Shown here piece after piece: positions 49,155 through 52,999 of a stretch of DNA of 56,253 nucleotides. This stretch comes from Cycloclasticus sp. symbiont of Poecilosclerida sp. M (GTDB lineage Bacteria > Pseudomonadota > Gammaproteobacteria > Methylococcales > Cycloclasticaceae), in the NCBI GenBank assembly GCA_002101225.1, contig LWTN01000240.1, positions 1 to 56,253 on the forward strand, read 5' to 3'. Under the pieces are notes generated by a model that was not told where the DNA came from, did no database searches, and saw only the letters and a list, made by a program, of their open reading frames with translations. Made by a program: the position numbers and the translations under genes. Within the stretch, counting starts at the first letter, position 1; every line of letters starts with the position of its first letter.

Positions 49155-49843
49155 TGCCTAAAAAAACATTGCTTTCATGGAGTAGCGGTAAAGATAGTGC
49201 TTGGACGCTATACCAATTACAGCAAGACGATGACATTGAATTAGTTGGTTTAGTGACGACAGTTAATGAAACGCACCAACGCGTTGCCATGCATGCTGTT
49301 CGTGTGGAACTGTTAAAACAACAAGCGCAGGCAGCCGGTTTGCCGCTGCATACCATTAATATTCCTCACCCATGTACGAACGAGATTTATAACCAAGCGA
49401 TGAATAATTTTTTTGATAGCATTAAAGGGAAAGGGATTACGCATATGGCGTTTGGTGATTTGTATTTAGAGGATATTCGTCAATATCGAATAGATAACCT
49501 AAAGCCCACGGGCTTAGAACCGTTATTCCCACTCTGGTTAAAAGCCACTAAGCAACTCGCACAAGCGATGTTAGCAGGCGGTCTAAAAACACGCATTACC
49601 TGTGTTGACCCGAAGCAAATACCCATGAGTTTTTGCGGTCGTGAATTTGATCAGCAGTTCCTCGATGACTTACCAGAAGGCGTAGACCCCTGTGGTGAAA
49701 ATGGCGAATTTCACAGCTTTGCCTATGCGGGACCAATGTTTAAACACGAAATAAAAATCACCTCAGGCGAAGTGGTTGAGCGTGATGGATTTGTTTTTGC
49801 TGATTTAATACTGGAAGTCTCGCCAGAAGGCACATCAGCGTGA
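49154..49843 (+). CDS. Diphthine-ammonia-ligase-like PP-loop ATPase (Dph6/MJ0570 family)
   Basis: 229 residues. The N-terminal PP-loop is LLSWSSGKDSAWTLYQL (SxGKDS type), and the family-specific block THMAFGDLYLEDIRQYRI and the C-terminal PCGENGEFHSFAYAGPMF are present. Archaeal and eukaryotic homologues amidate diphthine on EF2; bacteria lack diphthamide, so the bacterial substrate is unknown. It overlaps selO by 4 bp (GTGA). Confidence 0.87.
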   Translation: MPKKTLLSWSSGKDSAWTLYQLQQDDDIELVGLVTTVNETHQRVAMHAVRVELLKQQAQAAGLPLHTINIPHPCTNEIYNQAMNNFFDSIKGKGITHMAFGDLYLEDIRQYRIDNLKPTGLEPLFPLWLKATKQLAQAMLAGGLKTRITCVDPKQIPMSFCGREFDQQFLDDLPEGVDPCGENGEFHSFAYAGPMFKHEIKITSGEVVERDGFVFADLILEVSPEGTSA

Positions 49844-51417
49844 AGCACTTAAAATTTGATAACCAATTTGTACAGCAATTACCTGCCGATAGCATAACGG
49901 AGAATTACCCACGCCAAGTTCAAGGGGCGTGTTTTTCATGGGTAACGCCAAAACACATGCAAGCACCCGCGATGGTGGCTTATTCAAAAGAAGCGGCGGC
50001 CTTACTTGATAGTCAGGAACAAGATTGCCAATCAGAATCATTCATTCAAGTGTTTGCAGGCAACCAACAACTGGATGGCATGCAGTCCTACGCCACCAGT
50101 TATGGCGGGCATCAGTTCGGTAACTGGGCGGGGCAGCTGGGTGATGGTCGTGCCATTAACCTCGGTGAAATTACAAATAAGCAGGGCGAACGTTGGGCAA
50201 TACAACTTAAAGGCGCAGGGCCAACGCCGTATTCAAGAACAGCCGATGGTTTGGCAGTGCTTCGATCATCTATCCGAGAGTTCCTATGCAGTGAAGCGAT
50301 GGTTCACCTTGGCGTACCTACTACACGGGCCTTGAGTGTTTTAACCACGGGCGAGCAGCTAGTGCGGGATGTGATGTACGATGGCAACCCAGCGCCAGAG
50401 CCAGGCGCTGTGGTGTGTCGATTAGCACCATCGTTTACTCGCTTCGGGCACTTTCAATATTACGCGCAACAAAACGTAGAATTACTCAAACAGTTTGTCG
50501 ATTACACGATAAAAATGGACTTTCCACATCTGCCTGAGCTGAATAAAGAAACCTATATCAAATGGTTTGAAGAGGTCTGTACCTCAACCTGCGCCATGAT
50601 CGTGGAATGGATGCGCGTGGGTTTTGTACACGGCGTAATGAACACCGACAATATGTCTATACTTGGGCTGACTATCGACTATGGCCCCTATGGCTGGCTA
50701 GAACCTTACGACCCAAACTGGACGCCGAATACCACCGATGCACAACACCATCGCTATGCCTTTGGACAACAAGCACAAATTGGGCACTGGAACTTGTATC
50801 AGCTAGCGAATGCTATTTATCCGCTTATTGATGAAGTTGAGCCATTAGAAAAAGCGCTGAATGAGTACGCCGGTCGCTATGGCAAACAGTGGCTATTGAT
50901 GATGACAAAGAAACTGGGTTTCTCAAGCGTCAATAAAGAGACTGATTCTGATTTGGTTAAACAGCTTTTAACATTTCTCGGACAGCAAGAAATCGATATG
51001 ACGATTTTCTATAGGCGTTTAGCCAACGTATCGAGCAAGGATGACACGCTGGATATTGAAACGGCAATCAAACAGCTAAGCCCTGCCTTTTATTCAGATG
51101 AATTGTCGGCGAATACAAAAAAGGCATTAACAGATTGGTTGGAAGTTTATTGGCAACGCCGTCAGCAAGATTCTATTACTGCGGAACAACGTATCGTGTT
51201 GATGAATAAGGTCAACCCAAAGTACGTATTGCGTAATTACCTAGCGCAGCAAGCGATAGAGAAATCTGAGCAGGGTGATCACAGTATGGTGAATGAGCTA
51301 TTAGACGTGTTAAGACATCCTTATGATGAACAGCCGGATAAGGAGCACTTAAACCAAAAAAGGCCGGAGTGGGCGAAGTTGAAGGTGGGGTGTTCTATGT
51401 TGTCGTGTAGTTCATAA
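49840..51417 (+). CDS. selO: Protein adenylyltransferase SelO (YdiU)
   Basis: 525 residues; a pseudokinase-fold AMPylase that transfers AMP to Ser, Thr or Tyr, implicated in redox stress. Motifs are GGHQFGNWAGQLGDGRAINLGE (around residue 85), KGAGPTPYSRTADGLAVLRSS and the inverted active site GVMNTDNMSILGLTIDYGP (each continuous at that place). The C-terminus ends CSMLSCSS; this cysteine tail aligns with the selenocysteine region of mammalian SELENOO, so the protein is complete. The start is GTG 49840, overlapping the ATPase stop. Confidence 0.95.
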   Translation: MKHLKFDNQFVQQLPADSITENYPRQVQGACFSWVTPKHMQAPAMVAYSKEAAALLDSQEQDCQSESFIQVFAGNQQLDGMQSYATSYGGHQFGNWAGQLGDGRAINLGEITNKQGERWAIQLKGAGPTPYSRTADGLAVLRSSIREFLCSEAMVHLGVPTTRALSVLTTGEQLVRDVMYDGNPAPEPGAVVCRLAPSFTRFGHFQYYAQQNVELLKQFVDYTIKMDFPHLPELNKETYIKWFEEVCTSTCAMIVEWMRVGFVHGVMNTDNMSILGLTIDYGPYGWLEPYDPNWTPNTTDAQHHRYAFGQQAQIGHWNLYQLANAIYPLIDEVEPLEKALNEYAGRYGKQWLLMMTKKLGFSSVNKETDSDLVKQLLTFLGQQEIDMTIFYRRLANVSSKDDTLDIETAIKQLSPAFYSDELSANTKKALTDWLEVYWQRRQQDSITAEQRIVLMNKVNPKYVLRNYLAQQAIEKSEQGDHSMVNELLDVLRHPYDEQPDKEHLNQKRPEWAKLKVGCSMLSCSS

Positions 51418-51756
51418 CGCTTTGCTAACCGCACCGTTGTTTGGGTGAGCTTTTTTATGAGTTTTTTCCAAGACTGGGGCTACCACCTTGGTATGGTTTA
51501 TAAGCATTGCCGTACTGTTTTTACCCCATGACTTAATATTTGACGCAGGAATCCCAATTTTTTTAGCTTTAATTTTGATCTTCTTTGCTCTTCTAGTCAT
51601 CTCTTTTATAACTCTCTGGGCATCAGGGTTAGAAAGCTCTTTTTTTAGAAGTATTTCAGCTTCAGAATCACCTTTCAAAGTTTTATAGCAGAGTTTCTTG
51701 ATTCGCCTGCAATAAGACTTTCTATTGCTATTCTCGGTTGTTACATCTTTATTCAC
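51412..51756 (-). CDS. Hypothetical lysine-rich protein
   Basis: About 114 residues from GTG 51756 (TTG 51771 also possible). It is strongly basic, with a helical centre (EAEILLKKELSNPDAQRVIK, then RRAKKIKIKAKK) and a Lys/His-rich C-terminus; no family recognised. It converges on selO and overlaps its stop by 6 bp. There is no Shine-Dalgarno sequence before the start. The opposite strand (51488-51688, TTG start) reads a hydrophobic 66-residue frame; I judge that a shadow of the Lys codons, but cannot exclude it. Confidence 0.35.
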   Translation of the reverse strand: MNKDVTTENSNRKSYCRRIKKLCYKTLKGDSEAEILLKKELSNPDAQRVIKEMTRRAKKIKIKAKKIGIPASNIKSWGKNSTAMLINHTKVVAPVLEKTHKKAHPNNGAVSKAL

Positions 51757-51808
51757 TATGGTTAAAAACAACAGTGCTTGGGATGAGAATTTAGCTTAAA
51801 AAGTTGAC

Positions 51809-51891
51809 TTTTAACCACAGTCACTTGCTAGACGGAGCGCGAAGCGGCGCAGTCTCACAAAGACAATGGTTAGTGTCGGCTGCCGTTAGAT
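51809..51891 (-). repeat. attC-like imperfect hairpin
   Basis: On the minus strand ATCTAAC (51891-51885) fits the integron R'' box RYYYAAC, and GTTAAAA (51815-51809) fits R' GTTRRRY at six of seven positions. On plus coordinates the pairs nest in order: TAAC 51812-51815 with GTTA 51885-51888, CAG 51818-51820 with CTG 51880-51882, CACT 51822-51825 with AGTG 51872-51875, AGAC 51830-51833 with GTCT 51852-51855, and GCGC 51837-51840 with GCGC 51847-51850. Unpaired bases separate the blocks, as in attC sites. No integrase or cassette array is in the window; orientation is uncertain. Confidence 0.35.
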
Positions 51892-51926
51892 CGGAATGCT
51901 CGCGACAGCGAGCGTTCCGATCTAAC
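51885..51926. repeat. Long near-perfect hairpin
   Basis: Arms 51885-51903 and 51908-51926 are complementary over 19 pairs with a single T-G mismatch (a wobble in RNA) around a GACA tetraloop. The arms begin GTTAGATCGG and end CCGATCTAAC. There is no T-run, so it is not a standard terminator. Its left box is shared with the attC-like hairpin. Confidence 0.85.
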
Positions 51927-52021
51927 TAGTGATTAAGAGGAATAAAATAACCCTATCTAAGTTAACACTAGCATACTTAATAAAAGGTATAGGTTTAATA
52001 AGGCAACACTGCCGTGAGGAC

Positions 52022-52078: not shown

Positions 52079-52999
52079 CTATATGGTGCCCAGTAAAGCA
52101 CTCTCTAAGTCTTTATATCTAAACTGATAACTTAGACTTAAAGCTTTTACAGGCAATATTTTCTTCCCTGCCAGCAACAACTCTTCACCCATTTGTCCCA
52201 TTAATAGCTTTATTACAAACGCTGGCATGGGGAAAATAGTCGGGCGTTTGAGTACCTTACCTAAAGTTTTGGTAAAGGTTTGATTAGTTACAGGGCTAGG
52301 CGATGTGCTGTTAATGGGGCCGTTTACATCATCGTGCTGTATGCAGTGCAAAATAATACCCACTAAATCATCTAGATGAATCCAAGGCATCCAATGGGTA
52401 CCTTTGCCCATTCTTCCTCCTAGGCCTAATTTAAAAGGTAGCAGCATTTTGCTTAATGCGCCGCCACCTTTGCCCAGCACGATGCCGGTACGCAAAAGGC
52501 ACGTTCGAATGCCGAGTGTTTGTGCTTGCAAGGCAATGGTTTCCCACCGTTGGCAGAGTTGGCTGGAAAAACTATCGTCCCCCTCTGCGGATTCATCTAT
52601 AGCATCATCTGTTTCGCCAACGCCATAATAACCAATGGCAGAACCACTAATAAACACGCCGGGTTTGTGTTTGGTCGCTTTAAAGTAGTTAATCAGTTTT
52701 TGTGTGGTGTCTAGCCGACTGCTCAAAATACGTTGCTTTTGTTTATCGCTCCACCGCTTATCTGCAATGGGTTCGCCTGCTAGATTAATCACAACATCAA
52801 AAGCGGCATCATTCGCTAGTTGTTCAAGTTCATTAATACCGTATAGGGGTGCTTTTAGCGGTTTAGGGCGACGGGTCAGCACCGTAATGTTATGTTTATT
52901 TTCCAATAGACGAGAACACAGAGCAGAACCAATAAAACCCGTTCCACCGGTTATTAAAACGCTCATCTCTTTATTCGCAAGTTCACTAGATGCCTGCAT
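52079..52999 (-). CDS. yfcH: TIGR01777 family NAD(P)-binding epimerase-like protein (YfcH)
   Basis: 306 residues, extended short-chain dehydrogenase fold. The nucleotide motif VLITGGTGFIGSALCSRLL begins at residue 14. DVVINLAGEPIADKRWSDKQKQ and SGSAIGYYGVGETDDAIDE are the family blocks (each continuous); the C-terminal DUF1731 domain ends with QFRYKDLESAL. The substrate is unknown; older annotations call it a SulA-like division inhibitor. ATG 52999 follows GGAG at good spacing, better than ATG 52966. Confidence 0.9.
   Translation of the reverse strand: MQASSELANKEMSVLITGGTGFIGSALCSRLLENKHNITVLTRRPKPLKAPLYGINELEQLANDAAFDVVINLAGEPIADKRWSDKQKQRILSSRLDTTQKLINYFKATKHKPGVFISGSAIGYYGVGETDDAIDESAEGDDSFSSQLCQRWETIALQAQTLGIRTCLLRTGIVLGKGGGALSKMLLPFKLGLGGRMGKGTHWMPWIHLDDLVGIILHCIQHDDVNGPINSTSPSPVTNQTFTKTLGKVLKRPTIFPMPAFVIKLLMGQMGEELLLAGKKILPVKALSLSYQFRYKDLESALLGTI

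Follow-up and report, generated by a model that had tools for sequence, protein, structure and literature searches.

A probable collapsed integron cassette array with a hairpin cassette at attI in a Cycloclasticus symbiont of Poecilosclerida

Introduction

The sedentary chromosomal integron consists of an integrase gene (intI), an attI site and an array of attC sites, and clusters of two or more attC sites that lack intI are referred to as CALINs. Loot et al. (2024) are said to have described attG insertions, in which IntI recombines at unusual sites, and Tetu & Holmes (2008) reportedly recognized an IS1111-attC group of insertion sequences, inserting at attC ends. The origins proposed for integrase-less cassette clusters in one paper (PMC8618304) are off-target insertion, loss of intI and rearrangement.

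We present an analysis of a 56,253 bp stretch of DNA (the window; contig LWTN01000240.1 of assembly GCA_002101225.1) from the Cycloclasticus sp. symbiont of Poecilosclerida sp. M, in which a site resembling attC had been noticed next to a hairpin. The locus, situated between SelO and epimerase-like genes, is very probably a collapsed integron cassette array with a hairpin cassette at attI and an attC cut by an insertion sequence (IS). The evidence, read from the DNA sequence, comprises the IS end, half an attC, the hairpin cassette, an attI remnant, synteny with the genome designated G008, and a complete IntI elsewhere. The locus matters in that related marine Cycloclasticus genomes have several putative attI docks away from the integrase gene.

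Organization of the locus

The SelO gene (49840..51417, plus strand; Pfam SelO, 3e-126), which is syntenic with G008 and G016, flanks the locus at its far end, and an epimerase-like gene (52079..52999, minus strand; Pfam Epimerase, 1.2e-27, and DUF1731), syntenic with G008, flanks it on the attI side. The minus strand serves as the cassette strand; along it are found, in order, the attI, the hairpin cassette, the first half of an attC, the IS end, approximately 330 bp with a 119-aa ORF, and an R' box abutting SelO.

The attI (51920..51956, minus strand) is degenerate and belongs to the family designated A. A profile (R1) derived from nine attI-A sites, the window excluded and four of the nine not being beside intI, has its best match in the 56-kb window at 51921-51956 (17.3 bits, E 1.7e-4; runner-up 7.2 bits). 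The remnant is only 36 nt long, and its 17.3 bits correspond to an E value of 0.0098 in a whole-genome search. The crossover falls between G51926 and T51925. The attI of an integron is thus represented by this remnant and by an intact attI-A at the orthologous place in G008. There is no adjacent intI, the remnant (51956) being separated from the epimerase gene (52079) by only about 120 bp.

The preliminary description had proposed comparing this junction in relatives, and the G008 SelO-epimerase interval indeed contains a cassette array headed by an intact attI. The SelO and epimerase of G008 are 84% and 79% identical to those of the window; after the attI-A come ORFs on the cassette strand, one of them with an FTCD_C domain (4.8e-16), and intI is absent. 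AttC-like stretches of 60-91 nt are shared between this array and the G008 array that is linked to intI, a kind of recurrence also shown by attC sites. A strict attC filter found no site in the G008 interval and a looser finder one.

At the other end, a GTTATGA box overlapping the SelO stop (51412..51418, minus strand) was assigned, by boundary comparison and by eye, as the R' (crossover) box of the former array's last attC. The end of SelO and the onset of sequence divergence share a ...GTAGTTC(A/G)TAACG boundary in the window, G008 and G016, and in G016 an IS-cut attC-like hairpin (boxes by eye) directly follows it. Since the boundary is common to the three, the window appears to retain the former array's two ends (51412-51956). 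The 119-aa ORF from the ORF list (51412..51771, minus, i.e. cassette, strand) is a possible remnant of a cassette gene; it had no Pfam match and no relative among the loci compared. Half an attC and a single R' box are fewer than the two attC sites of a CALIN. No attI was seen beside the epimerase gene in the stretch inspected of G009, G010 and G011.

The genome was also searched for an IntI integrase, as had been suggested, and a complete, stop-free one was found at G000:C218:21904-22848 (444.9 bits versus a cut-off of 265; G000 is the window's own genome), so that an integrase is present at the genome level. IntI above the cut-off occurs in 13 of the 18 genomes of the genus, which is probably Cycloclasticus. 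Three such matches were recorded in G013 (C1:92229-93176, C1:365692-366639 and C6:88399-89343), one with an in-frame TAA.

The hairpin and the proposed attC site

The 42-nt, 19-bp hairpin of the preliminary description (51885..51926, minus strand) is borne out: the complementarity between its arms (51885-51903 and 51908-51926) is 95%, and folded alone it gives -19.0 kcal/mol versus -5.14 in shuffles (z -8.30; 0/200 shuffles as good). Both the GTTAGAT box said to be shared with the attC-like part and the closing ATCTAAC box are present at its edges. Its fold and its copies elsewhere mark it as the body of an ORF-less mini-cassette. Box spacing alone is uninformative because a search for GTTAGRY...RYCTAAC pairs returned 5 places versus 6 for a backward control. 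The hairpin pattern had 0 matches among viral contigs, and the full hairpin-attC element no match in plasmids.

The five nested blocks that had been taken for an attC at 51809-51891 fold at chance level. By itself this segment gives z -1.15 on the plus strand (24/200 shuffles as good) and z -1.66 on the minus strand (12/200), because the left portion (51809-51827) belongs to the right end of an IS110-family element; and since it folds much as its shuffles do, the z of -5.60 for the wider region around the hairpin must stem mostly from the hairpin. The proposed site is, to judge from its composition, chimeric, an IS end joined to half of a real attC. That half, which is what stands of the attC-like site, is the first half of an attC at 51828..51891 (minus strand), with the R'' box ATCTAAC at 51885-51891 followed by GGCAGCCGACA..., and is broken by the IS at GTCTAGC|AAGTGAC. 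The true partner of the right half is in relatives of the CGGCAGCCGACAAT...TTTG|TTAGAC type and is missing from the window. Paired R''/R' boxes around a folded stem are consequently not present, the IS insertion having removed R' and left R''. The cassette start and R'' persist, the full attC being found in the G013 and G017 copies, and the window copy is presumably no longer able to work as an attC.

Copies of the hairpin cassette

A search for further copies, likewise proposed earlier, located them in the own genome (G000:C209), in relatives (G012, G013 and G017) and in the Methylophaga-labelled MAG NORP33. G012 is probably Cycloclasticus sp. symbiont of Bathymodiolus heckerae, and G013 and G017 are apparently uncultured Piscirickettsiaceae / Cycloclasticus MAGs. 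Window positions 51825-51926, which include the attC half, match a 180-nt element at G013:C1 with 91% identity, other copies being those of G017:C9 and G013:C6. Intact copies (attC-like part plus hairpin) fold with z -11.56 (G013:C1) and -7.07 (G013:C6) as a closed stem and then the hairpin, the G013:C1 copy having inner arms. Their minus-strand sequence, GTTAGAT-hairpin-ATCTAAC-GGCAGCCGACAAT...ATTGTCGGCTGCC-G, is arranged like a cassette, with start box, body, R'' box and attC. A G precedes TTA in the five copies inspected, and two G012 copies have a cassette body of about 33 bp.

In G013:C6 the hairpin cassette occupies the first cassette position at the attI-A beside intI; in G000:C209, G012:C117 and NORP33 it comes after a textbook attC. 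On G012 contigs C113 and C115 it lies directly at an attI of the second family, B, and is followed by a gene; at two G012 loci the hairpin would precede the first gene in the transcript, and a putative role as leader or plug is possible.

The G013:C1 copy (319303-319582; L034, L138) is inverted inside an orphan attI-B, which it splits, about 53 bp from the crossover. This copy does not fit ordinary insertion at attI.

The IS110-family element

Positions 51744..51827 (plus strand) were identified, through identity to a copy on contig C243 of the own genome, as the right end of an IS110-family element, consisting of the 3' end of the transposase gene and a short 3' noncoding end, the rest being lost. 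Window 51744-51832 and the right end of the 1192-bp C243 copy share 93% identity, and in an own-genome search 51780-51852 recurred at C231 (99%) and 51780-51832 at C243 (98%). The C243 transposase matches Transposase_20 (PF02371; 6.1e-15), as expected of the DEDD transposases of the IS110 family; a 51-aa N-terminal piece of it had no Pfam match.

The C243 IS sits in an apparent attC, with GCATAAC...GCCTTG as its left flank and TTAGAAC as its right, and by eye the left flanks at G000:C243 and at G016:C67, C76 and C77 are attC-like. Six of eight right ends show G|TTA, the remaining two being CTA and a T-run. Insertion thus appears to be into the attC crossover box, as in the IS1111-attC group. 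At two IS left ends in G000 (window 56010 and C155) no attC was visible. In the C243 copy the transposase gene is preceded by about 217 bp and followed by about 35 bp, and no clear subterminal repeat was visible by eye; the downstream noncoding region and subterminal inverted repeats of the IS1111-attC elements are not found in it.

The left end of a second IS110-family copy, with no attC visible, runs from 56010 or 56012 to the contig end at 56253, downstream of a methyltransferase-like ORF. In NORP33 (L044, 5202-5243 onward) the hairpin cassette that follows the textbook attC is interrupted at ...ATCTAAC|AAGTGACTATGG, a junction resembling that of the IS in the window.

Dispersed attI-like modules

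Two families of attI occur upstream of intI, A in G015, G017, G005, G008 and G013:C6, and B in G000:C218, G004, G012, G001 and G003. Merged profile searches, in which profile B was built from intI-linked sites only, returned 68 attI-like modules of at least 55 bits in 16 of the 18 genomes, 10 of them beside intI by position, a count in which neighbouring intI genes may be missed as several assemblies are fragmented. The single-contig genomes G008 and G015, which are safe from this effect, have 8 and 6 attI sites, respectively, and one intI each. With three intact IntI proteins as queries, 44 attI loci comprised 9 with a near-full IntI, 3 with a short intI fragment and 32 with none. The fragments (L083, L085 and L114, the last near a contig end) resemble the N-terminal part of IntI, hinting at loss of intI or at a duplication reaching into it. 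Beyond the genus, profile B matched only two genomes among the 121 of the order (29.1 and 23.8 bits).

In 28 orphan attI modules the homology to intI-linked sites extends from about -75/-105, and once from -160, to the crossover, stopping 5-7 bases short of it in two. A purpose-written simple attC finder, applied within 2.6 kb of 31 attI junctions (28 orphan and 3 intI-linked; the short stretches L156, L162, L163 and L165 were left out), gave 25 strict attC-like sites on the cassette strand against none on the opposite one and 0-2 in ten shuffles. Such a site was present at 16 of the 28 orphan loci and absent from 12; the background in 51.4 kb of the window was 1 and 4 per strand. On contigs C217 (L162) and C220 (L165) of G000 the attI-B copies agree at 82/105 positions and have unrelated flanks (82/295), and immediately after the G of G|TT 364/364 bases are identical, both contigs ending inside this stretch; the two evidently carry the same first cassette at two putative docks.

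The occurrence of attI-like modules dispersed in Cycloclasticus genomes is new here; in open-licence PMC text no description of such modules or of Cycloclasticus integrons was recognised. There is perhaps an even chance that they form a distributed integron, in which one IntI would serve scattered attI docks, each heading a small array, the hairpin mini-cassette would hop among them as plug or leader, and the window would be a decayed dock.

Origin of the locus and alternative explanations

The preliminary description had left a choice between a lone recombination site, a fossil cassette junction and a new repeat family. A fossil integron locus with a recurring ORF-less cassette is what emerged, one half of the proposed attC having turned out to be IS. 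The former array between SelO and the epimerase gene would have had an attI and no adjacent intI. The ORF-less hairpin cassette would have been inserted at the G|TT crossover of this attI by integron-type recombination, and its attC probably then cut by the IS110-family element, which may target attC crossover boxes and other G|TTAGR-like sequences. Deletion of most of the IS and of nearly the whole array would leave the present ~540 bp. Acting in trans, IntI would insert cassettes at several attI modules, and the hairpin cassette would be one of the passengers.

Were the hairpin and its adjacent stem instead a MITE- or REP-like mobile repeat, moved by a transposase and often found in integrons as tolerant sites, the inverted G013:C1 copy away from the usual junction would be explained, and the hairpin end and the copies on several contigs would be in keeping. 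We consider this improbable: the ends of the element are core-site boxes with the constant G before TTA, copies in G013:C6, G012 (three copies), C209 and NORP33 are placed exactly at attI or behind attC, and no transposase was linked to the element. Less credible still, to the point of being nearly negligible, is the view of the hairpin as a terminator of transcription or a regulatory RNA lying between SelO and the epimerase gene, unrelated to integrons. The strong stem and the convergent genes would suit it; however, there is no T-run 3' of the hairpin in the sequence, an Rfam scan at the locus gave nothing relevant (sub-threshold chance matches only), the interval is not RNA-conserved in G008 or G016, as an intergenic RNA should have been, and copies exist in unrelated contexts.

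A somewhat greater, although still small, probability is attached to the dispersed modules being a promoter-like repeat which by chance also lies upstream of intI. The module is a discrete unit of ~80-105 bp, and intI fragments accompany only 3 of the 35 loci without full intI. Against this, the homology mostly ends at or a few bases from G|TT, the attC-like sites that follow are oriented, and an identical cassette occurs at two modules.

Comparison with known systems

If true, the distributed integron would give attI-headed arrays and thereby a further origin of CALINs. With many attI modules and one intI per genome, trans action at several native docks would be directly testable, and the hairpin cassette would be a natural, almost minimal cassette for learning which structures IntI accepts.

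The IS resembles the IS1111-attC group in being inserted at an end of attC sites (PMC11187229) and differs in that the noncoding sequence before the transposase gene is long and that after it short, which is an IS110-type layout. Like the Xanthomonas CALINs, as portrayed in PMC12444791, the locus has cassettes without a neighbouring intI at a conserved chromosomal position; unlike them it is headed by its own attI. The hairpin cassette shares the lack of a reading frame with the ORF-less cassettes mentioned in PMC12444791 and PMC8618304, but its body is a near-perfect hairpin alone, two core boxes and the intervening bases. AttI-type cassettes and attG insertions (PMC12901181; Loot et al. 2024) also involve IntI recombination with unusual sites; they reportedly concern mobile integrons or E. 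coli libraries rather than dispersed native attI sites as in Cycloclasticus. With the sedentary chromosomal integron the locus has in common an attI, in remnant form, a probable cassette insertion at G|TT with half of its attC, and a TIGR02249-family IntI in the genome, and it is set apart by an attI without adjoining intI, by its collapse and by the several attI modules elsewhere in the genome.
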